Below, one piece after another: positions 29,006 through 57,918 of a stretch of DNA of 64,000 nt (position 1 is its first letter; every line of letters starts with the position of its first letter). The stretch covers positions 124,001 to 188,000 of the forward strand of contig NZ_CP126161.1 in NCBI RefSeq assembly GCF_030127105.1, given 5' to 3'. The position numbers were made by a program, and so were the translations under genes. Source of the DNA: Haloarcula pelagica (GTDB taxonomy: Archaea; Halobacteriota; Halobacteria; Halobacteriales; Haloarculaceae). Below the pieces are notes generated by a model. The model did not search any database and was not told the origin of the DNA. It saw only the letters and a program-made list of their open reading frames with translations.

Positions 29006-30358
29006 TTAACTACCTCCCAGCGAGCAATTGCTCGCCGGCTCTTCCTGACACGAATACTCCACGTCGCGTGTCGTCTTGACCAGATCGAAGTACCGGCCGA
29101 AGTCCTGCTGGCTCTCGGGCCGTCCACGGACGATCGGAACCGGCCGGATCGACTGGTGATCACACTCCCGCATCGTCTGTGCGCCGACACCGGCACCGTA
29201 CTGAGCCCCCTCAAGCGTACTGATGACTCGGTTCGGGTTGAACGTGCCAGCCCGGGCGACCGCGCTCGCGTACAACAGCGTCTGTGTGTAGGCGACGTGG
29301 GCCGGCCCCGACGGGACCGACGAACTCGACGACGCGGTGCCGCCCTGGTACTCCTCGGCGAACGCTGACCGGAACGTGTTCGACAGCGGCGTATCGATCG
29401 ACGGGTCCCAGGCCGCCGTCCCGAGCACGTTCTCGATAGCTCCGCCGGCGGTCTGTGCGACGGCGCGGGTGTACAGCGGGACGACGATGTTCTCGTCGGG
29501 GAACGCCTCACGGAAGGTCCGGAGGGCGTTCGCCGCGTCCAGACCGCGGAGGTTGAGGATCAGTACGTCCTCCGAGGCGTTCTCGATGTCCGGGACGTAC
29601 TGGGAGAAATCACGCGTCCCCACCTGTGCGACCAGACTCCCGGTGAACCGCCAGCCCGCCTCCCTGAGCGTCTCGGCGAACAGTTGCCGCTGTGCGTTCC
29701 CCCAGTCGTCCTGGGAGTAGATCTGGAAGAACTCCGTGTCCTCGCCGTACTCGTCGAGGAGGACCGGCGTCAGCGCCCGCGTCGTCATCGTGGAGTTGAA
29801 CATCTCCCGGAACGTGAACCGGTTGCAGTTCTGGCCGGTGAGGCTGTCGATCTGTGACATCGTCGCCATGTAGACGACTTCGGCGTCACCGGCGACCCGT
29901 TGGTGTTCCAGGGCCGTATCGCTCGTCGACCCCCCAGAGAGCATGATCACGTCCTGGTTGTTGACCATCGACTCCGCCGAGAGGCGGGCGGATTCGGGAT
30001 CGCTCTCGGTGTCACCGACGACGAAGTCGACGGTCTTTCCCAGGAGTCCGTCACCGCTGAGACTGCTGAAGATACTCTGTCCGACCCAGCCACCGCCGTT
30101 GTTGATGTGTTTGACGGCGAGTTCGTGGCCGCGGAGTTCCTCCTCCCCCGCGGTCGAGAACGGCCCGGACTGTGCGACGTTGAATCCGAACGTGACGGTG
30201 TCGCCGGTTACGGGGTAGTTACCGATCTGCTCGCCGGTTGGGGTGCCGTTACCACCACCGCCACAACCGGCCAGACCAACGACACCGGCTGCCCCCGCGG
30301 TTCTGAGAATCGACCGACGTGAGACACCGGACTCACGGCGCACTGACCTACGTCCCAT
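29006..30358 (-). CDS. Leu/Ile/Val-type periplasmic-binding lipoprotein paired with the transducer
   Basis: A 450-residue Tat lipoprotein. Twin-Arg SRRSILRTAGAAG precedes the lipobox GLAGC. The mature part is a type 1 periplasmic-binding fold of the LivK/amide family (TVTFGFNVAQSGPFSTAGEEELRGHELAVKHINN, VDFVVGDTESDPESARLSAESMV). The ATG at 30356-30358 places the twin Arg in the normal position; an ATG 27 bases upstream is also in frame. No ABC permease or ATPase lies beside it. Its gene instead precedes the transducer by 2 bases, as in haloarchaeal BasB/BasT-type pairs. The ligand is unknown. Confidence 0.85.
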   Translation of the reverse strand: MGRRSVRRESGVSRRSILRTAGAAGVVGLAGCGGGGNGTPTGEQIGNYPVTGDTVTFGFNVAQSGPFSTAGEEELRGHELAVKHINNGGGWVGQSIFSSLSGDGLLGKTVDFVVGDTESDPESARLSAESMVNNQDVIMLSGGSTSDTALEHQRVAGDAEVVYMATMSQIDSLTGQNCNRFTFREMFNSTMTTRALTPVLLDEYGEDTEFFQIYSQDDWGNAQRQLFAETLREAGWRFTGSLVAQVGTRDFSQYVPDIENASEDVLILNLRGLDAANALRTFREAFPDENIVVPLYTRAVAQTAGGAIENVLGTAAWDPSIDTPLSNTFRSAFAEEYQGGTASSSSSVPSGPAHVAYTQTLLYASAVARAGTFNPNRVISTLEGAQYGAGVGAQTMRECDHQSIRPVPIVRGRPESQQDFGRYFDLVKTTRDVEYSCQEEPASNCSLGGS

Positions 30359-46965: not shown

Positions 46966-47670
46966 ATGATTGACATTGCCCTGGACATGGAACAGTACGA
47001 CTGTCCGTTCATCGACACCACTGCCGACCACGAGGTGGCGTTCGCGGCGATGCAGTGGGAGTTCGACCAGAGCGTCCGCGAGTTAGAGACGCGGATGGTC
47101 GTCGAAGCCGACGGCAGGGATGCACTCGACAACGGGCTGGAGGCGTTACAGGCACACGGAAACATGAACGACCTCTCGCTGTTGCGCCGGCAGGGCGAGG
47201 TCGCACAGATCAGGACGGTCATCGAGGAGACGGCGGCGATGCGGACGATCCGTGGACACGACGGCTACATCACCGGGCCGTTCCACATCGAGGCCGGCAG
47301 CGAGGTGTGGCACGTGGGCTTCGACACGAGCCACGACGCCGACCGGACCCTCTCGGACCTGGACCGTGACAACGAGTTCGACGTGGTCGAACGGGAGAAC
47401 ACCGGCCTCCCGGAGCTACAGGACGTGGTCCAGAACGCCGGCGCGGCGATGACGCTCGTCAACGGCTGTCGGGACCTCTCGGAGACCGAACGCGAGACGC
47501 TGGAGACGGCCGTCTCGGAGGGGTACTTCGAGAGCCCGCGGGGCGCGACCCTGGGGAACCTCGCCGACGAGTTCGGCGTCTCGAAACCGGCCGTCTCGAA
47601 GAACCTCCGGCGGGGCGAGCGCAAGATGATCGAACGCGTCGTCGAGGCGCTGGACGACATCGACGAGTAA
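46966..47670 (+). CDS. HTH10 (Bat-like) transcriptional regulator next to the transporter operon
   Basis: A 234-residue regulator. N-terminal sensor-like domain (MEQYDCPFIDTTADHEVAFAAMQW, which is typical of the family), then the Bat-type HTH (LSETERETLETAVSEGYFESPRGATLGNLADEFGVSKPAVSKNLRRGERKMI). It lies 75 bases upstream of the binding-protein gene on the same strand and is the natural candidate to control that operon in response to its substrate or to stress. Palindromes lie on both sides of it. Confidence 0.9.
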   Translation: MIDIALDMEQYDCPFIDTTADHEVAFAAMQWEFDQSVRELETRMVVEADGRDALDNGLEALQAHGNMNDLSLLRRQGEVAQIRTVIEETAAMRTIRGHDGYITGPFHIEAGSEVWHVGFDTSHDADRTLSDLDRDNEFDVVERENTGLPELQDVVQNAGAAMTLVNGCRDLSETERETLETAVSEGYFESPRGATLGNLADEFGVSKPAVSKNLRRGERKMIERVVEALDDIDE

Positions 47671-47683
47671 CGACACCTTCTCG

Positions 47684-47710
47684 CGGGCGGCGTTAACATG
47701 TAAACGCCCG
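47684..47710. promoter_or_regulatory. 27-base imperfect inverted repeat between HTH10 and binding-protein genes
   Basis: CGGGCGgcgttaACATGTaaaCGCCCG shows outer CGGGCG/CGCCCG arms and an inner palindromic ACATGT. It may terminate the HTH10 mRNA or act as an operator for the transporter operon. Confidence 0.4.
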
Positions 47711-47745: not shown

Positions 47746-49200
47746 ATGAGAGATTATGCCACACGACGCCGTGTCCTGGGCGCACTCGGTGCCGGACTGA
47801 CCGGGCTCGCTGGCTGTGTCAGCGAAGACCGTGGAAGCGGTGACGGCGGTGACGGGAGCAGCGGGAGCGACGGGAGCGACGGAGGATCAGACATGAACGG
47901 CGACGGCGACTCATCGAGTGACGGCGGGAGCACGGGCGACGGATCGAGCGGAACGACGAGCGTCTCGATCGGGATGTTACAGCCGCTGTCCGGGGACCTG
48001 GCCTACTACGGCCAGCAGTCGCTGTGGGGCTTCCTCTCGGGGCTTGCCTACAAGGCCGGCGACTCCCCGCCGGCCGAACCCAGCACCGGCGAATTGACGA
48101 TGACCGTCGGGGATGTTGAGTATACGGTCTACATCCGCGACACGCAGTTCTCGGCCGACACCGCACAGACGGCCGCGACGAACCTCGTCGAGAACCAGGG
48201 CGTCGACATCCTCGCTGGGTGTGCGTCCTCCGCGTCGGCGAGTCGCGTCGTCACGACCGTCGTCAACCAGGCCAGCGTCCCGATGATGGTCGGCCCGGCC
48301 GCCTCCGCGGGGATCACCTCCAACAGCGAGACCTGCGGTGACCTGGTGTACCGGGCCAGCGAGAACACGGCGATGGACGCCCGTTCGGGCGGGAAGTACG
48401 TCGCCAACGAGACCGACGTATCGAGTGTCTACCTGTTCGGGGCCGACTACAGTTTCGGCCGCGCGGTCGTCAACAACTACAAGGCCGTCCTCCAGAACGA
48501 GGGCGTCGAGATCGTCGGCGAGCGGTTCGTCGAACAGGGGTACGCCGAGTGGGAAGGGCTCCTCGACAACGCCGAGGAAGCCGGCGCAGAGGGCGTCGTC
48601 GGCGGGTTCACCGTTGCGACGCTGCCCAGCATGTTCAACGCCTTCCTCTCGGGGGAGTACTCCTATCGGGTGTTCGGCGGCTACGCGACGCGGATCACCA
48701 ACAGCGTCGTCGGCGGGACGATGCAGAACGTCCTGGGGGAGCCACTGACCCAGGAGAAGATCCGCAACTCGAACCTGGGGCCGTTTACGACCCGGTACCA
48801 CTGGAACCAGTACGACAACGACATCAACAACACCTTCGTCGAGACCTACACCGACACGTACGGCGTCGTGCCGGACCTGTTCACTTCGGGGACGTTCACC
48901 GGAGCCTCGGCGATCCACCAGGCCGTCCAGGAGGGCGGTTCGACCGAGGGTCCCGACATCGCGAGCGCGTTGAAGGGGATGACCGTCACCGACACGCCGA
49001 AAGGCGAGGGCGGCTACACCTTCCAGGAGTACAACAACCAGGCCCGCTCGGCGATGACCGTCGCCGACCCCATCCCGACGACCGACGAGTGGTCGGAGAA
49101 CTGGGGTGCGGCCATCATGCCGGGCGAGCCGCTGTCACGGATCGGCGCTGACGAGACGACGATCCCGGCAGACAGCGACCAGATGGACTGCTCGCTGTAA
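47746..49200 (+). CDS. Liv-type ABC transporter substrate-binding lipoprotein
   Basis: A 484-residue Tat lipoprotein. Twin Arg TRRRVLGALGAG, lipobox GLAGC, then a Gly/Ser/Asp-rich linker of about 45 residues and a type 1 periplasmic-binding fold (VSIGMLQPLSGDLAYYGQQSLWGFLSG). It is closest in look to the branched-chain amino acid/amide/urea class. Its gene is first in an operon with four ABC components. I chose ATG 47746, since an upstream in-frame ATG (47716) only adds basic residues ahead of the twin Arg. The ligand is not predictable by eye; downstream enzymes suggest an organic acid or its derivative. Confidence 0.85.
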   Translation: MRDYATRRRVLGALGAGLTGLAGCVSEDRGSGDGGDGSSGSDGSDGGSDMNGDGDSSSDGGSTGDGSSGTTSVSIGMLQPLSGDLAYYGQQSLWGFLSGLAYKAGDSPPAEPSTGELTMTVGDVEYTVYIRDTQFSADTAQTAATNLVENQGVDILAGCASSASASRVVTTVVNQASVPMMVGPAASAGITSNSETCGDLVYRASENTAMDARSGGKYVANETDVSSVYLFGADYSFGRAVVNNYKAVLQNEGVEIVGERFVEQGYAEWEGLLDNAEEAGAEGVVGGFTVATLPSMFNAFLSGEYSYRVFGGYATRITNSVVGGTMQNVLGEPLTQEKIRNSNLGPFTTRYHWNQYDNDINNTFVETYTDTYGVVPDLFTSGTFTGASAIHQAVQEGGSTEGPDIASALKGMTVTDTPKGEGGYTFQEYNNQARSAMTVADPIPTTDEWSENWGAAIMPGEPLSRIGADETTIPADSDQMDCSL

Positions 49201-49201
49201 C

Positions 49202-49999
49202 ATGCTCAGGACGCGGGGTCTCACGAAGGAGTTCGGCGGGCTGACCGCCGTCGACGACGTATCGTTCGAACTCGGCGACGAACTGTGCTCGCTCATCGGG
49301 CCCAACGGTGCCGGCAAGACGACGTTCTTCAACCTCCTCACGGGGGTGTTGGCCCCGACGGAGGGGACCGTCGAACTCCGGCGGAGCGGCCAGTGGGACG
49401 ATATCACCGACGCGGCACCACACGAGACGGCCCAGCGAGGCATCCACCGCTCGTACCAGGTCACGTCGGTGTTCCCCAACAGCACCGTCCTGGAGAACGT
49501 CCGCGTGGCCGAACAGGCCCGCGGGAGCGACTCGACGCGGTTCTGGCGCAACGTCGACCACTTCGAAGAGCACACCGAGCGCGCACACGAAATCCTCGAA
49601 CGAGTGGGCCTAGACGACCGCGCCCACGACCCGCCCAGCACGCTCAGCCACGGCGCCAAGCGGAAACTGGAGGTCGGGATGGCACTCGCCGGCGATCCGT
49701 CGGTGCTGTTGCTCGACGAACCCAACGCCGGCGTCTCCTCCGAGAGCGTCGACGAGGTCCGTGCCCTCATCGAGGACGTAGCCGAGGACCACGCCGTGTT
49801 GCTTGTCGAACACAACATGGACATCGTGATGGATGTCTCCGAGCGGGTCGTCGTCCTCCACCAGGGCGCGGTCATCGCGGACGGTCCGCCGGCGGAGGTC
49901 CGTGCGAACCCCGATGTCCAGTCGGCGTATCTCGGTGGCTACGAACCCGGGAGTCTCGACGACGCCGACGAGCCTGCCGACGAGGGTGGTGTCGTGTGA
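49202..49999 (+). CDS. Liv-type ABC transporter ATPase (LivG-like)
   Basis: A 265-residue ATPase. Walker A GPNGAGKTT, the LivG-specific IHRSYQVTSVFPNSTVLENVRVA, the signature region LSHGAKRKLEVGMALA (a variant LSGGxx), Walker B VLLLDEPNAGVSSE and H-loop LVEHNMDIVM. ATG 49202 follows the binding-protein stop by one base. It pairs with the LivF-like gene, whose GTG overlaps its stop. The variation in the signature (SHGAKR) is common in LivG. Confidence 0.93.
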   Translation: MLRTRGLTKEFGGLTAVDDVSFELGDELCSLIGPNGAGKTTFFNLLTGVLAPTEGTVELRRSGQWDDITDAAPHETAQRGIHRSYQVTSVFPNSTVLENVRVAEQARGSDSTRFWRNVDHFEEHTERAHEILERVGLDDRAHDPPSTLSHGAKRKLEVGMALAGDPSVLLLDEPNAGVSSESVDEVRALIEDVAEDHAVLLVEHNMDIVMDVSERVVVLHQGAVIADGPPAEVRANPDVQSAYLGGYEPGSLDDADEPADEGGVV

Positions 50000-50694
50000 G
50001 CCTGCTCGAACTCTCCGACGTGAACACCTACTACGGCGACAGCCACATCCTCCAGGGGGTCGATCTAGCCGTCGAGGAGGGGGAAGTCGTCGCACTGGTC
50101 GGGCGAAACGGCGTCGGGAAGACGACGACGCTGCGCTCGATCCTCCAGTTGAACCCGCCACGCGAGGGCGAGATCACGTTCCGGGGCGACTCACTGGTCG
50201 GCCTGGAGACCCACGAGGTCGCCGACCGCGGCGTCGGCTGGATCCCCGAGGAGCGGCGGATCTTCGGGCAGTTGACCGTCGAGGAGAACCTCCGAGCGGC
50301 GATTCCCGACACGGATTCGATCGCCGAAGGACTGGCCCTGGCTTTCGACGCCTTCCCGATCCTCGAAGAGCGCCGCCGACAGGAAGCGGGGACGCTCTCC
50401 GGGGGCCAACAGCAGATGCTCGCCATCGCCCGCGGACTCGTCGGCGAGAACGACCTCCTGCTTGTCGACGAGCCAAGCGAGGGACTGGCGCCACAGATCG
50501 TCGCCGACGTGGCGGAGGCACTCTCCGAAGCGAGTGCCGAAGCGACGATCCTCCTCGTCGAGCAGAACCTCCCGCTGGCGCTCGATCTCTCCGATCGGTT
50601 CTACATCGTGGACCACGGCGTCGTCGTCGACGACGGCGACTCCGACGCGGTCTCAGCCGACGACGAGCGGTTCAGGAGGTATCTCTCGGCATGA
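49996..50694 (+). CDS. Liv-type ABC transporter ATPase (LivF-like)
   Basis: A 232-residue ATPase. Walker A VGRNGVGKTT, LGGQ-type signature LSGGQQQMLAIARGL, Walker B LLLVDEPSEGLAP, H-loop LVEQNLPLAL. GIPEERRIFGQLTVEENL-like motifs mark it as LivF. The GTG at 49996 overlaps the upstream stop by four bases (GTGA) and is favoured. The downstream permease ATG overlaps its stop too. Confidence 0.93.
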   Translation: MSLLELSDVNTYYGDSHILQGVDLAVEEGEVVALVGRNGVGKTTTLRSILQLNPPREGEITFRGDSLVGLETHEVADRGVGWIPEERRIFGQLTVEENLRAAIPDTDSIAEGLALAFDAFPILEERRRQEAGTLSGGQQQMLAIARGLVGENDLLLVDEPSEGLAPQIVADVAEALSEASAEATILLVEQNLPLALDLSDRFYIVDHGVVVDDGDSDAVSADDERFRRYLSA

Positions 50695-51680
50695 TCGTCG
50701 AGACACTGGCGGACTTCCTGACGGTCCCGGAACTGGGAACCGTCGTCGTCAACGGACTCGCCAAGTCCGCGCTGTACGTGATGATCGCCAGCGGACTGAC
50801 GCTGATCTTCGGGCTGATGGGCGTGTTGAACTTCGCACACGGCTCGCTGACGATGGTCGGCGCGTACCTGGCCGGGTTGGTGATGGTCACCGTCGTCGGG
50901 CAGGCGACCGGGTCGGTGACGCGGCTGGCGGTGTTTTTCGTCGCGATCCTGCTGGTCTTCGGTGGGCTCAGCGTCCTCGGCGGGGCCATCGAGACGACGC
51001 TCATCCGGCCGCTGTACGACCGCCCGCCGATCTACCAGATCCTGCTCACCTTCGGCCTGACGCTGGTGATCGACGAGATCGTCCGGATCGTCCTGGGCGT
51101 GTTCGGGATGCAGCCCATCTCGGACTGGCAGGCAGCCCTGGCGACGAAACCGCAGTTCCTCCGCGAGCCCGCGGCCGTCGCCGGGATCAGCGTCCGCTGG
51201 ATGGCCGTCTTCCAGATCCTGCTGGGAATCGTCACCGTCGTGGGCATCTGGGCGTTCCTGACGAAGACCCGATACGGCCTGTACATCCGTGCCGGTAGCG
51301 AGGACTCGGAGATGGCCGCGGCGCTCGGCATCGACGTTCGCCAGGTGTTCACCGTCGTCTTCGCGCTGGGCATCGGACTGGCGGGCGCGGCCGGTACCCT
51401 GCTGATGTGGGACGCCACCTGGGGCGCGAGCGTCCCGCTGGCAGCGGAGACGCTCCTCCCTGCGTTCATCGTCGTCATCGTCGGCGGCCTGGGGACCTTC
51501 CGGGGAACCGTCGTCGCCGCCGTCGTCGTCGGGATGACCGACGCGGTGATGACCTGGTGGTTCCAGAACTACATCCAGTTCACCGGGCTGCCGGAACTGG
51601 TGCTGTTCCTGGTGCTCGTGGTGACGCTGATCGTCAGGCCACAGGGACTGTTCGGCGTCGAGGAGGTGGGGGGCCATTAG
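50691..51680 (+). CDS. Liv-type ABC transporter permease (LivH-like)
   Basis: A 329-residue permease with eight or so helices. LTLIFGLMGVLNFAHGSLTMVGAYLA is the strong LivH signature, with GIDVRQVFTVVFALGIGLAGAAGTLLM and the EAA-like loop IVVIVGGLGTFRGTVVAAVVVG. ATG 50691 overlaps the ATPase stop by four bases. It forms the membrane channel with LivM-like. Confidence 0.94.
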   Translation: MIVETLADFLTVPELGTVVVNGLAKSALYVMIASGLTLIFGLMGVLNFAHGSLTMVGAYLAGLVMVTVVGQATGSVTRLAVFFVAILLVFGGLSVLGGAIETTLIRPLYDRPPIYQILLTFGLTLVIDEIVRIVLGVFGMQPISDWQAALATKPQFLREPAAVAGISVRWMAVFQILLGIVTVVGIWAFLTKTRYGLYIRAGSEDSEMAAALGIDVRQVFTVVFALGIGLAGAAGTLLMWDATWGASVPLAAETLLPAFIVVIVGGLGTFRGTVVAAVVVGMTDAVMTWWFQNYIQFTGLPELVLFLVLVVTLIVRPQGLFGVEEVGGH

Positions 51681-51723
51681 CACCGAAACCCAGGCCGGGA
51701 CGACCACCGAGGTCTCCTGGCCA

Positions 51724-52950
51724 GTGGCCTACCTCCGCTCGCACGCCGCCCACGTGGCGATCATCCTGCTGCTCGCGGTGTACCCGTCGATCTACCACAC
51801 GCTGTTGAACTCGCCGGTCCAGTACGAGGCCGAGATGCTGTTACCGACCGTCGAGACGATGGTCGGCGTGCTGTACTTCGGCCTGTTCGCGATGTCCTTC
51901 GACTTCATCAGCGGCTACACCGGCTACCTCTCCTTTGGCCACGCGGCCTTCTACGGGACCGGTGCCTACACGGTCATCCTCGTCGCCAACGGGAAGTTCC
52001 CGCTCCTGGGCCCGGAGACCCCGTTCATGATCTCGCTGCTGGTCGCGGGGCTGTTGGCCGTGGTCGTCGCGCTGCTGGTTGGGCTGGTCTCGTTCCGGCT
52101 CTCCGGGGTCTACTTCGCGATGATCACGCTCGGGTTCGCCCAGGTGCTGTACGTGTTCATCCGGGGCTGGGACTACGTGGCACGCAACCCCCGTGACGGT
52201 CCCGCCGTGGGGCCGAGCCACGCCAGCGGCTTCGACATCGGCGTCCCCTGGGTCGACCAACTCAACCTCGCGATCGGTGTTCTCACCGGCGACGAGGTGT
52301 CCCTGCTGGGGACGACCCTGTCGGGGACGACCGTCTCGTTCTACATGGTCGGACTCGTCGTCCTGGTCTGTTACTTCGCGATGCAGCGGATCATCCACTC
52401 GCCCTTCGGCCGGGTGATGATCGCCATTCGCGAGAACGAGGAGCGGGCGGTCGCGATCGGCTACAACACCTACGTCTACAAGCTGGCCGCCTTCTGTATG
52501 AGCGGGTTCTTCGCGGGCGTCGCCGGCGCGCTGTTCGCCGGCTTCAGGCGCTCGGCAAGCCCCGAGAACTCGTTTTACTTCCTGGTCTCCGGTGACGCCC
52601 TCCTGGCGAGTATCATCGGCGGGTTCGGGACGCTGGCCGGCCCGCTGTACGGCCGGCTGTTCGACGAGACGGTCCGCGAGTTCCTCTCGAAGTCCGGCCA
52701 GGGCGGTGGCCTGCTCCCCTATCTCCGCCTGCTGCTCGGCGAGGGGACCCTCTCGACGCCGGTCGTCGGCGGGATGACCGTCGGCGGCCTCATCGACACC
52801 CTGTTGAACGGCCACGCCAGTCTCTACGTCGGTATCGTGTTCGTGTTGTTCGTCCTCTACGTCCCCGACGGCCTGCTGGGGACGATCCGAAACCGAATCG
52901 GCGGCACCGTCGCCGACGCTCTCCCGGCGAAGGTCTGGGACGACGAATGA
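51724..52950 (+). CDS. Liv-type ABC transporter permease (LivM-like)
   Basis: A 408-residue permease with about ten helices. Signatures: FDFISGYTGYLSFGHAAFYGTGAYT, GVYFAMITLGFAQVLY and AIRENEERAVAIGYN. The start shown is a GTG at 51724 (VAYLRSHAAHVAI); the frame is open back to the LivH stop, and an ATT inside the LivH stop region would add about sixteen residues, so the start is uncertain. Compared with E. coli LivM it has an insertion around residues 290-340 with a GQGGGLLPYLRLL segment. It overlaps the KAS III-like gene by four bases. Confidence 0.92.
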   Translation: MAYLRSHAAHVAIILLLAVYPSIYHTLLNSPVQYEAEMLLPTVETMVGVLYFGLFAMSFDFISGYTGYLSFGHAAFYGTGAYTVILVANGKFPLLGPETPFMISLLVAGLLAVVVALLVGLVSFRLSGVYFAMITLGFAQVLYVFIRGWDYVARNPRDGPAVGPSHASGFDIGVPWVDQLNLAIGVLTGDEVSLLGTTLSGTTVSFYMVGLVVLVCYFAMQRIIHSPFGRVMIAIRENEERAVAIGYNTYVYKLAAFCMSGFFAGVAGALFAGFRRSASPENSFYFLVSGDALLASIIGGFGTLAGPLYGRLFDETVREFLSKSGQGGGLLPYLRLLLGEGTLSTPVVGGMTVGGLIDTLLNGHASLYVGIVFVLFVLYVPDGLLGTIRNRIGGTVADALPAKVWDDE

Positions 52951-53960
52951 CCGTCCACGTCACCGGCCTGGGGACCTACCTCCCCGATGGGACGATGACC
53001 GCCGCGGACGTGGCCGACCGGAGCGGGATTCCCGAGGACGTGATCCGCGAGAAGATGGGGCTGTGCGGGAAACACGTCTGCCGGCCCGAGGAGGACCACC
53101 CCTCTGAGATGTGTGTCGCCGCGGCCCGCGAGGCGCTCGCCGACGCCGATGTCGCCGCCGACACGCTCGATATGGTCCGGTACCACGGCAGCGAGTACAA
53201 AGACCACGTGGTCTGGAACGCCGCGGCCGCCGTGGCCGAGGAGATCGGCGCGACCGGCGCCGGCGCGACCGAGAGCTACGCGCTCTGTGCCGGCTTTCCC
53301 GTCGCGCTCCGGGAGGCGAAGGCCCTGCTCGCGGCCGAGCCAGCGACCGAGCGGATTCTGCTCGTCGCCGCCAGCCGCGAGGAGGACCTCGTCGACTACA
53401 CGGACGACGATACGTCGTTCATGTTCAACTTCGGCAGCGGTGCGACGGCCGCGGTCGTCGAGACCGACGCCGAAGACCGAGCGCTGGCCCGCGTCCGCGA
53501 GAGCGCGAGCGTGACCGACGGCAGTTTCGCCCGGGACGTGATCGTCCCCGCCGGCGGGACCGCGCGGCCGGCGAGCCACGACACGGTCGAGACCGGCGCA
53601 CACTCCCTTCGGGTGCCCGACCATGAGTCGATGAAAGAACGGCTCGCCGAGGAGAGTCTGCCGAACTTCACGTCGGTCGCCACGGACGCCCTCGAACGGT
53701 CGGGCTACGGAGTCGAGGAGATCGACTTCGCCGCGATCACCCACATGAAACGGTCCTTCCACGAGTACCTCTGTTCGGAGTTCGGGCTGACAGCGGACCA
53801 GCACCGGTATCTGGACGACTACGGCCACGTCCAGAGCTGTGATCAGGTGCTCGCGCTCGACGACTGCCGTGACCGCCTCGGCGACGGCGATATCGTCCTC
53901 TGTCTGGCGGCCGGCACCGGCTACACCTGGGCCGCGAGCGTCCTAGAGTGGACCGCGTAA
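52947..53960 (+). CDS. KAS III/FabH-like thiolase-fold enzyme with altered triad
   Basis: A 337-residue thiolase-fold protein. N-terminal GLGTYLPDGTMTAADVADRSG and MFNFGSGATAAVVETD are FabH-type. Nucleophile Cys114 sits in YALCAGF. The catalytic His266 is in AITHMKRS. The position of the FabH Asn is His294 (LDDYGHVQSCDQ), giving a Cys-His-His arrangement. Such changes in other KAS III-like proteins accompany acyl transfer or hydrolysis instead of condensation. It shares an operon with Liv transporter, hydrolase and ligase. Haloarchaea lack normal type II fatty acid synthesis, so it probably does not make fatty acids. Confidence 0.8.
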   Translation: MTVHVTGLGTYLPDGTMTAADVADRSGIPEDVIREKMGLCGKHVCRPEEDHPSEMCVAAAREALADADVAADTLDMVRYHGSEYKDHVVWNAAAAVAEEIGATGAGATESYALCAGFPVALREAKALLAAEPATERILLVAASREEDLVDYTDDDTSFMFNFGSGATAAVVETDAEDRALARVRESASVTDGSFARDVIVPAGGTARPASHDTVETGAHSLRVPDHESMKERLAEESLPNFTSVATDALERSGYGVEEIDFAAITHMKRSFHEYLCSEFGLTADQHRYLDDYGHVQSCDQVLALDDCRDRLGDGDIVLCLAAGTGYTWAASVLEWTA

Positions 53961-54020
53961 CCCCGCGATGTTCACATGGTAACGTCCCCCTTGAAGGAGA
54001 ACGCGGGAGAACGATTGTCT

Positions 54021-54824
54021 ATGCCATATGCGAGCAACGACGGCGTCCGCCTGGCCTACGAGCGCGAGGGGCCACCGGACGCCGAGACCGTCGTGTTCGT
54101 CGAGGGACTGGGCTACGGCCGGTGGATGTGGCGGTTCCAACACCGGGCCGTCAGCCGCGACTACGAGAGCATCCGGTGGGACAACCGCGGCACCGGCGCC
54201 TCCGACGAACCCGAGGGACCCTACACTGTCCCGGAGATGGCGAGCGACCTCGAAGCGGTTCTGGACGACGCCGGAGTCGAGTCGGCCCACGTCGTCGGCG
54301 CGAGCATGGGCGGGATGATCGCCCAGCAGTACGCCCTGGAGTACGACCGAGCGCAGTCGCTGACGCTCATGTGTACTTCGCCGGGTGGTCCCCAGGAGGT
54401 CCCCATCCCCGACAAGACGCTCGACCGGATGTTCAACGTCCCGGAGGACGCCGACGAGCGCGAGGCCATCCGGTACAAGATGCGGCCGGCACTGACAGAG
54501 GGGTTCTGGAACGACAACCAGGAGCTGATCGACCGCATCGTCGAGTGGCGCCTGGACAGCGACGCCAGCGAACAGGCCCGGGGCTGGCAGGCCGCGGGCG
54601 TCGACGCCTTCGACGTTCACGACCGGCTCGACGAGATCACCCAGCCGACGCTGCTGTTGCACGGCACCGCCGACCGCGTGGTCCCCTACGAGAACGGCGA
54701 ACTGCTGGCTGCGGGGCTCCCCGATGTCGAGTTCGTCACCCTGGAGGGCGCCCCACACCTCCTCTTTATCGAACGTCACGAGCGGGTCACCGACCGCCTG
54801 CTGGAGTTCCTCGACGATGGTTGA
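54021..54824 (+). CDS. Alpha/beta hydrolase
   Basis: A 267-residue hydrolase. Nucleophile elbow Gly-Ala-Ser95-Met-Gly (VVGASMGGMIAQQ), oxyanion-hole region FVEGLGYGRWMW, acid Asp in LLLHGTADRVVPYENG and His in EGAPHLLFIE. The family includes esterases, enol-lactonases and C-C hydrolases (the RWDNRGTGASDEPEGPYT segment is typical of 3-oxoadipate enol-lactonase-like and haloperoxidase-like enzymes). Sixty bases separate it from the KAS III gene; its end overlaps the ligase start. Confidence 0.9.
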   Translation: MPYASNDGVRLAYEREGPPDAETVVFVEGLGYGRWMWRFQHRAVSRDYESIRWDNRGTGASDEPEGPYTVPEMASDLEAVLDDAGVESAHVVGASMGGMIAQQYALEYDRAQSLTLMCTSPGGPQEVPIPDKTLDRMFNVPEDADEREAIRYKMRPALTEGFWNDNQELIDRIVEWRLDSDASEQARGWQAAGVDAFDVHDRLDEITQPTLLLHGTADRVVPYENGELLAAGLPDVEFVTLEGAPHLLFIERHERVTDRLLEFLDDG

Positions 54825-56373
54825 TCGGTCGGCGCCCCAGGAGTGGGTCGGCGCCTGGAGCGAGAAGCGGGCCGCGCTCACCCCCGAGCGCGAGGGGCTA
54901 GTCGACGCGACGACGGGCGAGCGGTTCACCTACGCCGACCTCGACCGGCGGGCGAACCGGGCGGTCCGCCTCCTCCGTGACCGCGGCGTCGACGCGGACG
55001 ACAGCGTCGCCGTCGTCTCGCGCAACCGTCCCGCCGTCGTCGATCTGTTCTTCGCGACCGCGAAGGCCGGCGCCACTCTGGCACCGCTGTCTCACCGTCT
55101 CGCGCCGCCGGAACTGGGCGAGCTACTGGCCCGCGTCGATCCGGGGCTCCTCGTGGTCGAAGCCCCGTTCGCCGCGGACGTGGCCGACGCGCTCTCGGCG
55201 AGCGGCGTCGACCCGTCGGTCGTCGTACTGGGTGCCGACAGCGGGGACGTGACGAGCGAGTTCCCCGAGGCACCGGGCTACGACGCGGCGCTTCCGGCCG
55301 ACGGATCGGTAGTCGAGACGCCGGCGGTCGCCCCCGACGACCCACACCTGCTGTTGCACACCGGCGGCTCGACGGGGACGCCCAAGGAGACGGTTCTCAC
55401 ACACGAAGGCATCGTCTGGAACTCGGTGAACACGATCACCGCCTGGGGCCTGCGCGACGACGACGTGACGCCGATGGTGTTCCCGATGTTCCACACCGGC
55501 GGCTGGAACGTCCTCACGGTGCCGCTGTGGCACATGGGCGGCACTGTCGTCATCGCCCGGGAGTTCGATCCCGGGCAGGTCCTCTCGGTGATCGACGAGG
55601 AGGGCGGAACCGTCCTCGTGGCCGTCCCCGCCGTGTTGCGGATGATGACCGACCACGACGACTGGGACTCGGCCGACCTCTCGCAACTGCGCTTCGCCAA
55701 GTCCGGCGGCGGCCCGTGCCGACAGTCGGTCATGCAGACCTGGTGGGACCGGGGGATCGATCTCTCGCAGGGGTACGGCCTCACCGAGTGTGGCCCCAAC
55801 AACTTCGCGATGCCCGACGGCTGGCCCCGCGAGAAGGCCGATGCCGTCGGCAAGCCGGCGCTCCACGTCGACGCCCGGATCGTCGACGACGACGGCGACC
55901 CGGTCGAGCGCGGCGAGATCGGCGAACTGGTTCTGCGGTCGCCCCACGCCGCCGACGGCTACCTCGACAACCCCGAGGAGACCGCCGCGACCTTCGGCGC
56001 GTTCGTCGCGACGGGTGACCTCGCCCGGGAGGACGCCGACGGCTACTTCCACATCGAGGGTCGCAAGAAGGAGATGTACGTCAGCGGCGGCGAGAACGTC
56101 TACCCCGCCGAAGTCGAGGACGCCGTCGCCGACCATCCCGGCGTCGACGAAGTGGTCGTGATCCCGGTCCCAGACGACCAGTGGGGCCAGGTCGGGAAGG
56201 CCGTCGTCCAGGGCGACGAGTCGCTGACGCTCGCGGACCTCCGGGAGTTTCTGGACGACCGCCTGGCCGGCTTCAAACACCCGCGACACCTCGCGTTTAT
56301 CGAGGAGATGCCCACGAGCGGCCCGTCGAAGATCGACCGCCAGGCCGTCGAGGCCGAGTTCGGCGCGGAGTAG
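54817..56373 (+). CDS. Acyl-CoA synthetase / carboxylate-CoA ligase (ANL superfamily)
   Basis: A 518-residue AMP-forming ligase. P-loop LLLHTGGSTGTPKETVLTH, adenylate motif GYGLTECGPNNF, GDLAREDADGYFHIEGRKKEMYVSGGENVYPAEVED and the C-terminal catalytic Lys in GPSKIDRQ. It activates a carboxylic acid with ATP and CoA. The class (fatty or aromatic acid) is open. Its ATG 54817 overlaps the hydrolase by eight bases and it is the last gene of the operon. Confidence 0.93.
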   Translation: MVDRSAPQEWVGAWSEKRAALTPEREGLVDATTGERFTYADLDRRANRAVRLLRDRGVDADDSVAVVSRNRPAVVDLFFATAKAGATLAPLSHRLAPPELGELLARVDPGLLVVEAPFAADVADALSASGVDPSVVVLGADSGDVTSEFPEAPGYDAALPADGSVVETPAVAPDDPHLLLHTGGSTGTPKETVLTHEGIVWNSVNTITAWGLRDDDVTPMVFPMFHTGGWNVLTVPLWHMGGTVVIAREFDPGQVLSVIDEEGGTVLVAVPAVLRMMTDHDDWDSADLSQLRFAKSGGGPCRQSVMQTWWDRGIDLSQGYGLTECGPNNFAMPDGWPREKADAVGKPALHVDARIVDDDGDPVERGEIGELVLRSPHAADGYLDNPEETAATFGAFVATGDLAREDADGYFHIEGRKKEMYVSGGENVYPAEVEDAVADHPGVDEVVVIPVPDDQWGQVGKAVVQGDESLTLADLREFLDDRLAGFKHPRHLAFIEEMPTSGPSKIDRQAVEAEFGAE

Positions 56374-56415: not shown

Positions 56416-57918
56416 ATGCACTTCGAGCGGTCGAGCGGGATCTTCCTGCATCTCACGTCGCTGCCGAGTCCGGACGGAGTCGGGACGCTCGGCGAACCGG
56501 CCGAACAGTTCGTGGACTACCTGGACAGCGCCGGCCAGAGGCTGTGGCAGATCTGTCCGCTCGGGCCGACCGACGGCGCGTTCGGTAACTCGCCGTACCA
56601 GACCCACTCGTCGTTCGCCGGGAACCCGCTGTTGGTGAGTCTGACGGAACTCGTCGCAGACGGCTGGCTGACCGACGACGACCTCGCGGACCGACCGGAC
56701 TTCGACGACCACTGGGTCGAGTACGACCGCGTCGGCGAGTACAAACGCGGGATGCTCCGGACGGCCTTCGAGCGGTTCCAGGAGACAGCCGGCGAGAGCG
56801 AACAGCGAGCCCTGGACGAGTTCGCCGCCGACAACGACGGGTGGCTGGCCGACTACGCGCTCTTTCGGGCGCTGAAGACCCACTTCGACGGGGACGGCTG
56901 GACCCAGTGGCCCGCCGAGATCAAACAGCGCGACCCCGAGGCGCTCGCCCGGTATCGTGAGGAACTGGCCGAGGAGGTGCGCTTCCGTGAGTTCGTCCAG
57001 TGGTGTTTCGACCGGCAGTGGGACCGACTCCACGAGTACGCGAACGATCACGGCGTCCAGATCATCGGCGACATGCCGATCTACATGGGGATGGACAGCG
57101 CCGACGTGTGGGCGAACCCGGAACTGTTCGACCTGGACGAACACAACGAACCCGCGGCCGTCGCCGGGATGCCGACCAACCCGGACGGCGACGGCACCGG
57201 CCAGCGCTGGGGCAACCCCCTCTACGACTGGGCGGCGATGGCCGAGGACGACTACGCCTGGTGGGTCGACCGGTTCGAGGCGCTGCTCTCTCGGGTCGAC
57301 ATCACCCGGGTCGACCACTTCAAGGGGTTCGAGAGCTACTGGGCCGTGCCGGCGGACGCGCCGACCGCCGCGGACGGCGAGTGGCGCGACGGGCCGGGCC
57401 GGGAACTGTTCGAGACCGTCGAGGCCGAACTGGGCGAGTTACCGATCATCGTCGAGAACCTCGGCGGGATCACCCCGGAGCTGCGCGAACTGCGCGAGTC
57501 GCTGGGCGCGCCCGGCATGAACGTGGCGCTGTACGCCGACTGGTGTACGGAGGACCACATGTACATGCCCCACGTCTACCCGCAGGACTCGGTCGCGTAC
57601 ACCTCCACGCACGACACCAACACCGTGATGGGCTGGTACCGCGACGAGGCCGGCGACCGCCAGCGGGACTGTCTGCACTTCTACGTGGACTCGGACGGCC
57701 ACGACATCAACTGGGACATCACAGAGGCCGTCTGGGCCGCCGACTCGATCTTCGCGATCACACAGATGCAGGACTTGCTCGGCCTGGGCGGCGAGACGCG
57801 GTTCAACACGCCCGGGACGGCCGAGGGCAACTGGACGTGGCGGATCACCGAGGGCGGATTCGATCGGGGAGTCGCCCAGCGGCTCCGGGACGTGACCGAG
57901 CGCCACGCGCGGGACTGA
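56416..57918 (+). CDS. malQ: 4-alpha-glucanotransferase (GH77, MalQ)
   Basis: A 500-residue GH77 enzyme that transfers 1,4-alpha-glucan segments. Motifs: GIFLHLTSLPSPDGVGTLG, IIGDMPIYMGMDSADVWANPELF, GMPTNPDGDGTGQRWGNPLYDW, nucleophile region VDITRVDHFKGFESYWAVPA, acid IIVENLGGITPEL and SYTSTHDTNTVMGWY-type. Cytoplasmic. The N-terminus begins directly with the catalytic domain, as in short archaeal MalQ. It opens an alpha-glucan/glucoside cluster and ends in a long palindrome. Confidence 0.96.
   Translation: MHFERSSGIFLHLTSLPSPDGVGTLGEPAEQFVDYLDSAGQRLWQICPLGPTDGAFGNSPYQTHSSFAGNPLLVSLTELVADGWLTDDDLADRPDFDDHWVEYDRVGEYKRGMLRTAFERFQETAGESEQRALDEFAADNDGWLADYALFRALKTHFDGDGWTQWPAEIKQRDPEALARYREELAEEVRFREFVQWCFDRQWDRLHEYANDHGVQIIGDMPIYMGMDSADVWANPELFDLDEHNEPAAVAGMPTNPDGDGTGQRWGNPLYDWAAMAEDDYAWWVDRFEALLSRVDITRVDHFKGFESYWAVPADAPTAADGEWRDGPGRELFETVEAELGELPIIVENLGGITPELRELRESLGAPGMNVALYADWCTEDHMYMPHVYPQDSVAYTSTHDTNTVMGWYRDEAGDRQRDCLHFYVDSDGHDINWDITEAVWAADSIFAITQMQDLLGLGGETRFNTPGTAEGNWTWRITEGGFDRGVAQRLRDVTERHARD

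Follow-up and report, generated by a model that had tools for sequence, protein, structure and literature searches.

The 64,000-nucleotide stretch of the Haloarcula pelagica genome analysed here (the window; contig C1 124001-188000 of a haloarchaeal genome of 4.46 Mb) carries a gene for an HTH10 regulator and, behind it in the same orientation, eight genes in the order substrate-binding protein (SBP)-LivG-LivF-LivH-LivM-KAS III (β-ketoacyl-acyl carrier protein synthase III)-like enzyme-hydrolase-ligase (47746-56373; Table 1). Protein domains were assigned using Pfam profiles and curated family models with their own cut-offs, and together with the sequence they confirm the eight same-strand genes described in a first-pass annotation, which was made from the sequence alone and regarded them as a single operon with one- or four-base junctions and one 60-base gap. 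The 1-base spacing of SBP and LivG, the 4-base overlaps of LivG/LivF (GTGA), LivF/LivH (ATGA) and LivM/KAS (ATGA), and the 60-base gap between KAS and hydrolase agree with that description, but hydrolase and ligase overlap by 8 bases. LivM lacks a good ATG start, and its junction with LivH is a 5-base overlap with ATT at 51676 or a 43-base gap with GTG at 51724.

Table 1 Coordinates of the regulator, operators and module genes in the window
Feature	Position	Strand	Basis
HTH10 (Bat-type) regulator, HVO_2525_N + HTH_10	46966..47670	+	PF24279 62 bits, PF04967 58.4 bits
Palindromic operator GTTAACATGTAAAC	47692..47705	.	centre 47 bp before SBP start
Liv-type substrate-binding lipoprotein, lipobox LAGC	47746..49200	+	PF13458 183.6 bits
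LivG-type ATPase	49202..49999	+	PF00005 + PF12399
LivF-type ATPase	49996..50694	+	PF00005
LivH-type permease	50691..51680	+	PF02653 117.6 bits
LivM-type permease, start uncertain	51724..52950	+	PF02653 116 bits
KAS III-like enzyme, NF005308/PRK06840	52947..53960	+	NF005308 423.6 bits
Palindromic operator GTTCACATGGTAAC	53970..53983	.	centre 44 bp before hydrolase start
Alpha/beta hydrolase, triad Ser95-Asp218-His246	54021..54824	+	PF00561 100 bits
AMP-forming acyl-CoA ligase	54817..56373	+	PF00501 259 bits + PF13193

The module is conserved among haloarchaea. The KAS III-like family (NF005308) scores over its cut-off in 72 of the 292 Halobacteria genomes, and up to 20 kb around these 72 KAS loci was compared for gene context; the model also exceeds its cut-off in one control genome. 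At nearly all loci, SBP-LivGFHM-KAS is contiguous, with hydrolase-ligase-regulator just upstream, and the hydrolase-ligase pair lies downstream of KAS only in the window and in L074 from the same genus. This gene-order comparison, proposed in the first-pass annotation as a check and a possible refutation, did not refute it: transporter, KAS III-like enzyme, hydrolase, ligase and regulator remain linked across the Halobacteria and also in G367, a genome from outside the class described below. The eight-gene order of the window, by contrast, recurs in just one further genome. An orthologue of the hydrolase (>420 bits) is present in 69 of the 72 KAS genomes versus 17 of the 220 others (Fisher p ~1.6e-46, uncorrected for relatedness), and the regulator orthologue at about 60 of the 72 KAS loci. 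The Liv subunits alone resemble ordinary amino-acid importer parts, as expected if an amino-acid importer merely stood beside unrelated acyl enzymes; this explanation is effectively refuted by the conserved linkage, the shared operator and the synteny outside the class, and its probability is practically negligible. Fourteen of the 17 hydrolase carriers without KAS are congeners of the window genome, and 14 of its 16 congeners have no KAS III-like gene. Among seven KAS-less congeners inspected, six keep regulator-SBP-LivGFHM-hydrolase-ligase and the seventh only hydrolase-ligase, so the KAS III-like enzyme is dispensable.

Several variations of the locus were also seen. KAS genes without Liv genes occur at two loci, L043 and L089, each followed by a type 1 glutamine amidotransferase gene (L043 10577-11293, L089 10484-11197), and genes related to it are found close to the module in L070, L087 and L105. 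L044, L049 and L056 carry an additional ligase gene between LivM and KAS, its product being 39-42% identical to the window ligase. In the congeners L121, L122, L123, L126 and L127, hydrolase-ligase is followed by a mandelate-racemase/enolase-type gene, in some of them with a PAS/histidine-kinase gene in between. Downstream of the window ligase, a 4-alpha-glucanotransferase gene (MalQ) at 56416, not found near the other loci, is outside the conserved set. A viral or plasmid origin was rejected, there being no phage match and all plasmid matches above 60% identity being to haloarchaeal replicons.

Expression of the module is predicted to depend on a palindromic operator with the core GTT-N8-AAC (GTTN8AAC). 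With at most one mismatch, GTTNNCATGNNAAC occurs twice in the window against 0.51 expected, both times exactly, before the SBP gene and within the 60-base gap before the hydrolase. The strict pattern GTTNACATGNNAAC is restricted to these two places in the 4.46-Mb genome, and its reversed-pattern control gave 0. At the other loci, GTTN8AAC was found near the start of SBP (57/67) and hydrolase (16/29), as well as of genes for a short-chain dehydrogenase/reductase (SDR; 18/19), a MaoC-type hydratase (13/22) and a thiolase (3/10) that accompany the module in relatives, and near the starts of LivG, LivF, LivH, LivM and KAS in only 0-2 of ~70 each. Its position is nearly fixed, with a modal centre at -44 to -48 relative to the start codon. 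Scrambled or re-spaced control patterns mostly gave 0-2 per gene, the exceptions in some genes being GTTN9AAC and GTTN7AAC (up to 5) and AACN8GTT (4). The one-base-longer GTTN9AAC, perhaps a spacing variant of the operator, stands before hydrolase (5/29), MaoC (4/22), thiolase (4/10) and regulator (5/59) genes.

In archaea with leaderless transcripts, a centre near -45 puts a site immediately ahead of the TATA region, where activators of the Bat type usually bind. The regulator carries the HTH_10 domain of Bat-type regulators (PF04967, 58.4 bits against a cut-off of 23.1). The HTH10 protein probably activates transcription from the GTT-N8-AAC palindrome, which would stand directly ahead of the promoter. 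Because the operator is also present before the hydrolase, the genes appear to form two co-regulated transcription units, both of them probable targets of the regulator, rather than the one plain operon first assumed; the operator distribution is the strongest evidence that the 60-base gap may hold a second promoter. Dedicated control by the HTH10 regulator and palindromes, as put forward in the first-pass annotation, is borne out insofar as the palindromes are real, confined in their strict form to these two sites of the genome and shared across loci. The shared operator with its fixed position further suggests that the genes form one regulon, with a pathway that includes the partner genes seen in relatives. 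A dedicated import-plus-catabolism regulon is hence very likely, and the earlier idea that the genes serve the catabolism of an acid or ester is supported by the conservation of transporter and acyl enzymes together under one operator.

A rearranged version of the module exists outside the class. G367, from the same phylum, has a 2.1-Mb genome with ~45% GC locally and is the only module carrier among 55 genomes of its family. In one unit, a KAS homologue (32% identity) adjoins the ligase, with LivH and LivM further on in the same orientation; the other consists of SBP-LivG-LivF-hydrolase followed by a regulator of the same type (37% identity), beyond which lie genes for EtfAB, a hydroxyacyl-CoA dehydrogenase/enoyl-CoA hydratase fusion, DUF35 and thiolase. 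The strict GTTAACNGGTTAAC occurs exactly twice in the whole G367 genome, ~46 bp before the ligase and SBP starts. An AT-biased motif scan of genome contigs for low-GC relatives yielded two chance matches.

The partner genes in relatives bear on the substrate. MaoC, thiolase and DUF35 were named by sequence inspection (MaoC also by a neighbouring annotation), and a DUF35/OB protein recurs at 6 loci. The highest model scores of the regulon SDR, though short of the cut-off, are for 3-hydroxybutyrate dehydrogenases, its top PDB matches are D-3-hydroxybutyrate dehydrogenases without exception, and it keeps four residues, Gln/His/Lys/Gln, aligned with those of 4trr and 3v2h, which we take to bind the substrate carboxylate. 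SDR, MaoC and thiolase under the same operator point to a beta-oxidation-type breakdown of a 3-hydroxy or 3-oxo acid, and by these partner genes such acids are tentatively the leading substrate class, at somewhat less than an even chance. General beta-oxidation, or scavenging of fatty or branched-chain acids with no special preference for 3-hydroxy acids, would also account for the MaoC, thiolase and DUF35 partners, the Liv-type transporter and a ligase that scores best with fatty-acyl-CoA ligase models. However, the most consistent operator partner is the 3-hydroxybutyrate-dehydrogenase-like SDR, and we know of no fatty-acid import by Liv-type ATP-binding cassette (ABC) systems, making this alternative quite unlikely.

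The SDR family also connects the regulon to polyhydroxyalkanoate (PHA) metabolism. The regulon SDR of L042 shares 58.6% identity with an SDR of Haloferax mediterranei whose gene lies directly upstream of a patatin-like one. This is the layout reported for bdhA-phaZh1, with BdhA as the enzyme that turns 3-hydroxybutyrate into acetoacetate (PMC7137286). The MaoC-type PhaJ1 of the same species acts on 3-hydroxybutyryl-CoA in PHA mobilisation (PMC4823750). The SDR orthologue of the window genome itself is encoded directly upstream of a patatin-like hydrolase gene (G000:C1:3008760-3010617; L150 5761-7618, minus strand), and the two are probably a bdhA-phaZh1 PHA-mobilisation pair. Another member of this SDR family, on Natronomonas pharaonis plasmid PL131 (L168 8980-14116), lies beside a sodium:solute symporter and two CoA-transferase genes, in what looks like an alternative cluster for 3-hydroxybutyrate/acetoacetate utilisation.

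The transporter has the complete Liv/HAAT importer set, with Peripla_BP_6, two BPD_transp_2 permeases and two ABC ATPases. The AlphaFold2 (AF2) model of the binding lipoprotein (pLDDT 85.8) is most similar to the structure of RPA4397 (3n0x). The first-pass annotation had considered an amide ligand, but all urea/amide transporter models stay below cut-off, and a urea/short-chain amide importer was rejected (score/cut-off: UrtA 47/493, UrtB 167/250, UrtC 95/296, UrtD 214/304, UrtE 228/286). Eight Liv-type binding-protein genes exceed the Pfam cut-off in the genome, including a second one in the window (29123-30199, minus strand), ~18 kb from the module. A regulon of the same kind whose substrate is a ferulate- or hydroxycinnamate-like compound (an aromatic or phenylpropanoid acid, or an ester of one) would fit three observations: 4-hydroxybenzoate or vanillate is the ligand of several proteins structurally close to the binding protein, the feruloyl-CoA synthetase 8wev is nearest to the ligase, and the G367 locus lies near EtfAB and the hydroxyacyl-CoA dehydrogenase/enoyl-CoA hydratase fusion. 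In such a route, the hydrolase would free the acid, the ligase would form an aryl-propenoyl-CoA, and hydratase, dehydrogenase and thiolase or KAS would shorten the side chain. Nevertheless, aromatic binders are over-represented among solved Liv-type binding proteins, the residues with which 3-hydroxybutyrate dehydrogenases handle a short free acid are kept in the regulon SDR, and the recurrent neighbours include no recognisable ring-cleavage gene. We consider an aromatic substrate unlikely.

The KAS III-like enzyme belongs to NF005308/PRK06840, annotated '3-oxoacyl-ACP synthase' (423.6 bits, cut-off 315), and its AF2 model (pLDDT 88.6) has the fold of FabH, PqsD and OleA. Cys114 is invariant in 73 of 73 sequences, as are His266 and His294 in all sequences of this set covering those positions. 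The canonical FabH triad Cys-His-Asn is altered in that Cys114 and His266 are kept and His294 aligns with the Asn of FabH and HMG-CoA (3-hydroxy-3-methylglutaryl-CoA) synthase. Glu83 matches the HMG-CoA synthase Glu in the alignment and does not vary among the haloarchaeal sequences. Judged by these residues, the enzyme is not an ordinary KAS III, and without the Asn, acyl transfer or Claisen/retro-Claisen chemistry would seem more plausible than the usual malonyl-decarboxylating condensation. A retro-Claisen role is possible but doubtful. Two related identities were considered and set aside: the models of HMG-CoA synthase score below cut-off (NF003274 46.9 vs 244, TIGR00748 27.7 vs 353), and a separate HMG-CoA synthase gene is present elsewhere in the window genome; PhlACB, a complex of KAS III, DUF35 and thiolase, was considered because about ten loci have thiolase and DUF35, but most loci are without them.

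The hydrolase has its Ser95 in a GASMGG motif, and S95, D218 and H246 are invariant in 18 orthologues. Its nearest PDB entry is the esterase Est1 (6eb3); the 3-oxoadipate enol-lactonase PcaD was rejected as its identity (136.7 vs cut-off 255.85). KAS III-like enzyme, hydrolase and ligase, with an SDR in relatives, are the enzyme classes of oleABCD, and the gene order in the window matches oleA-oleB-oleC. A biosynthetic unit of this kind would start with a condensation by the KAS III-like enzyme and proceed through ligase and hydrolase steps to a beta-keto acid, beta-lactone or olefin, and the invariance of Glu83 in the haloarchaeal set speaks for it. Glu117 of OleA directly precedes a Pro (PMC7064751), whereas Glu83 is followed by Tyr/Phe/Leu, so the Glu-Pro signature is missing. 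The nucleophile of OleB is an Asp of the haloalkane-dehalogenase type and not, as here, an invariant Ser. In addition, the unit is locked to an importer, and 14 congeners do without KAS, leaving a biosynthetic role very improbable.

Our best explanation, for which we see about even prospects, is a dedicated regulon that imports an organic acid or its ester and degrades it in a CoA-dependent way, the most likely substrate being a 3-hydroxyalkanoate (monomers of the 3-hydroxybutyrate type or short esters). In the proposed pathway, the lipoprotein would capture the ligand outside the cell for import by LivHMGF, the serine hydrolase would cleave an ester or oligomer to give the free acid, and the ligase would convert this acid to acyl-CoA. 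In relatives, the MaoC hydratase, the D-3-hydroxybutyrate-dehydrogenase-like SDR and the thiolase under the same operator could complete a beta-oxidation-like route, and in the window genome the hydratase, dehydrogenase and thiolase steps would fall to genes elsewhere. The KAS III-like enzyme would probably accept an acyl group on Cys114 and transfer it to CoA by retro-Claisen (thiolase-like) cleavage, or alternatively catalyse a related non-decarboxylating acyl transfer. The fullest form of this proposal, a new activity in which a Cys-His-His enzyme of the KAS III fold performs CoA-dependent retro-Claisen cleavage of a 3-oxo acid or 3-oxoacyl-CoA within a 3-hydroxyalkanoate regulon that extends beyond Halobacteria with operator sequence and spacing kept, is speculative and somewhat unlikely.

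Several observations weigh against the 3-hydroxyalkanoate explanation. The KAS III-like gene is missing from most congeners, and the Glu83 position is Gln in the G367 homologue. SDR, MaoC-type hydratase and SCP-x-type thiolase are found at a minority of loci (19/72, 17/72 and 10/72, respectively), and the window itself has none of these genes of its relatives. The regulon SDR remains below the TIGR01963 cut-off (204.5 vs 307), and no GTTN8AAC operator was found before the SDR-patatin pair of the window genome. Moreover, the nearest PDB entries to the ligase are the fatty-acyl/feruloyl-CoA synthetases 8weu/8wev, and the structural neighbours of the binding lipoprotein, Liv-type binders including several with aromatic ligands, do not fix its ligand.

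A search of the open-access literature (subscription literature lay outside it) found no description of this regulon and nothing on the PRK06840 family. The regulator, operator, importer and enzymes make up a concrete, testable regulon for an archaeal carbon source, and the regulator-operator pair, with its strikingly conserved spacing, should be useful for studying archaeal gene control. The KAS III-like family is annotated as a synthase, but its residues and genomic setting favour another reaction, probably a catabolic one, suggesting that the '3-oxoacyl-ACP synthase' label in many archaeal genomes may mislead. If the substrate is indeed 3-hydroxybutyrate or its oligomers, the regulon would show how haloarchaea scavenge bioplastic from their surroundings.

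Compared with known systems, the module shares all five subunits, with the right domains, with Liv/HAAT importers of branched-chain amino acids, urea, amides and aromatic acids, but no curated specificity model reaches its cut-off and the genes are tied to acyl-CoA enzymes. The KAS III-like enzyme resembles KAS III/FabH in fold and in its active-site Cys and His, and differs in the invariant His in place of Asn, in the additional invariant motifs YHGSExKD, THMKRSFH and GHVQSxDQ, and in its catabolic-looking context. It resembles HMG-CoA synthase in the aligned Glu-Cys-His of haloarchaeal members and in the thiolase and DUF35 genes that accompany it at about ten loci, the archaeal thiolase/HMG-CoA synthase complex containing a DUF35 partner, but the Asn is replaced by His and the Glu is lost in G367. 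Like oleABCD, the module has four shared enzyme classes if the SDR is counted, and is set apart from it by the lack of the OleA Glu-Pro, by the Ser hydrolase, by the importer and by a ligase nearest to fatty-acyl/feruloyl-CoA synthetases. The bdhA-phaZh1 pair of Haloferax mediterranei likewise has a homologous 3-hydroxybutyrate-dehydrogenase-type SDR next to a hydrolase and handles 3-hydroxybutyrate; however, it serves intracellular PHA granules with a patatin-type hydrolase and lacks the Liv importer, the KAS III-like enzyme, the ligase and the operator described here.

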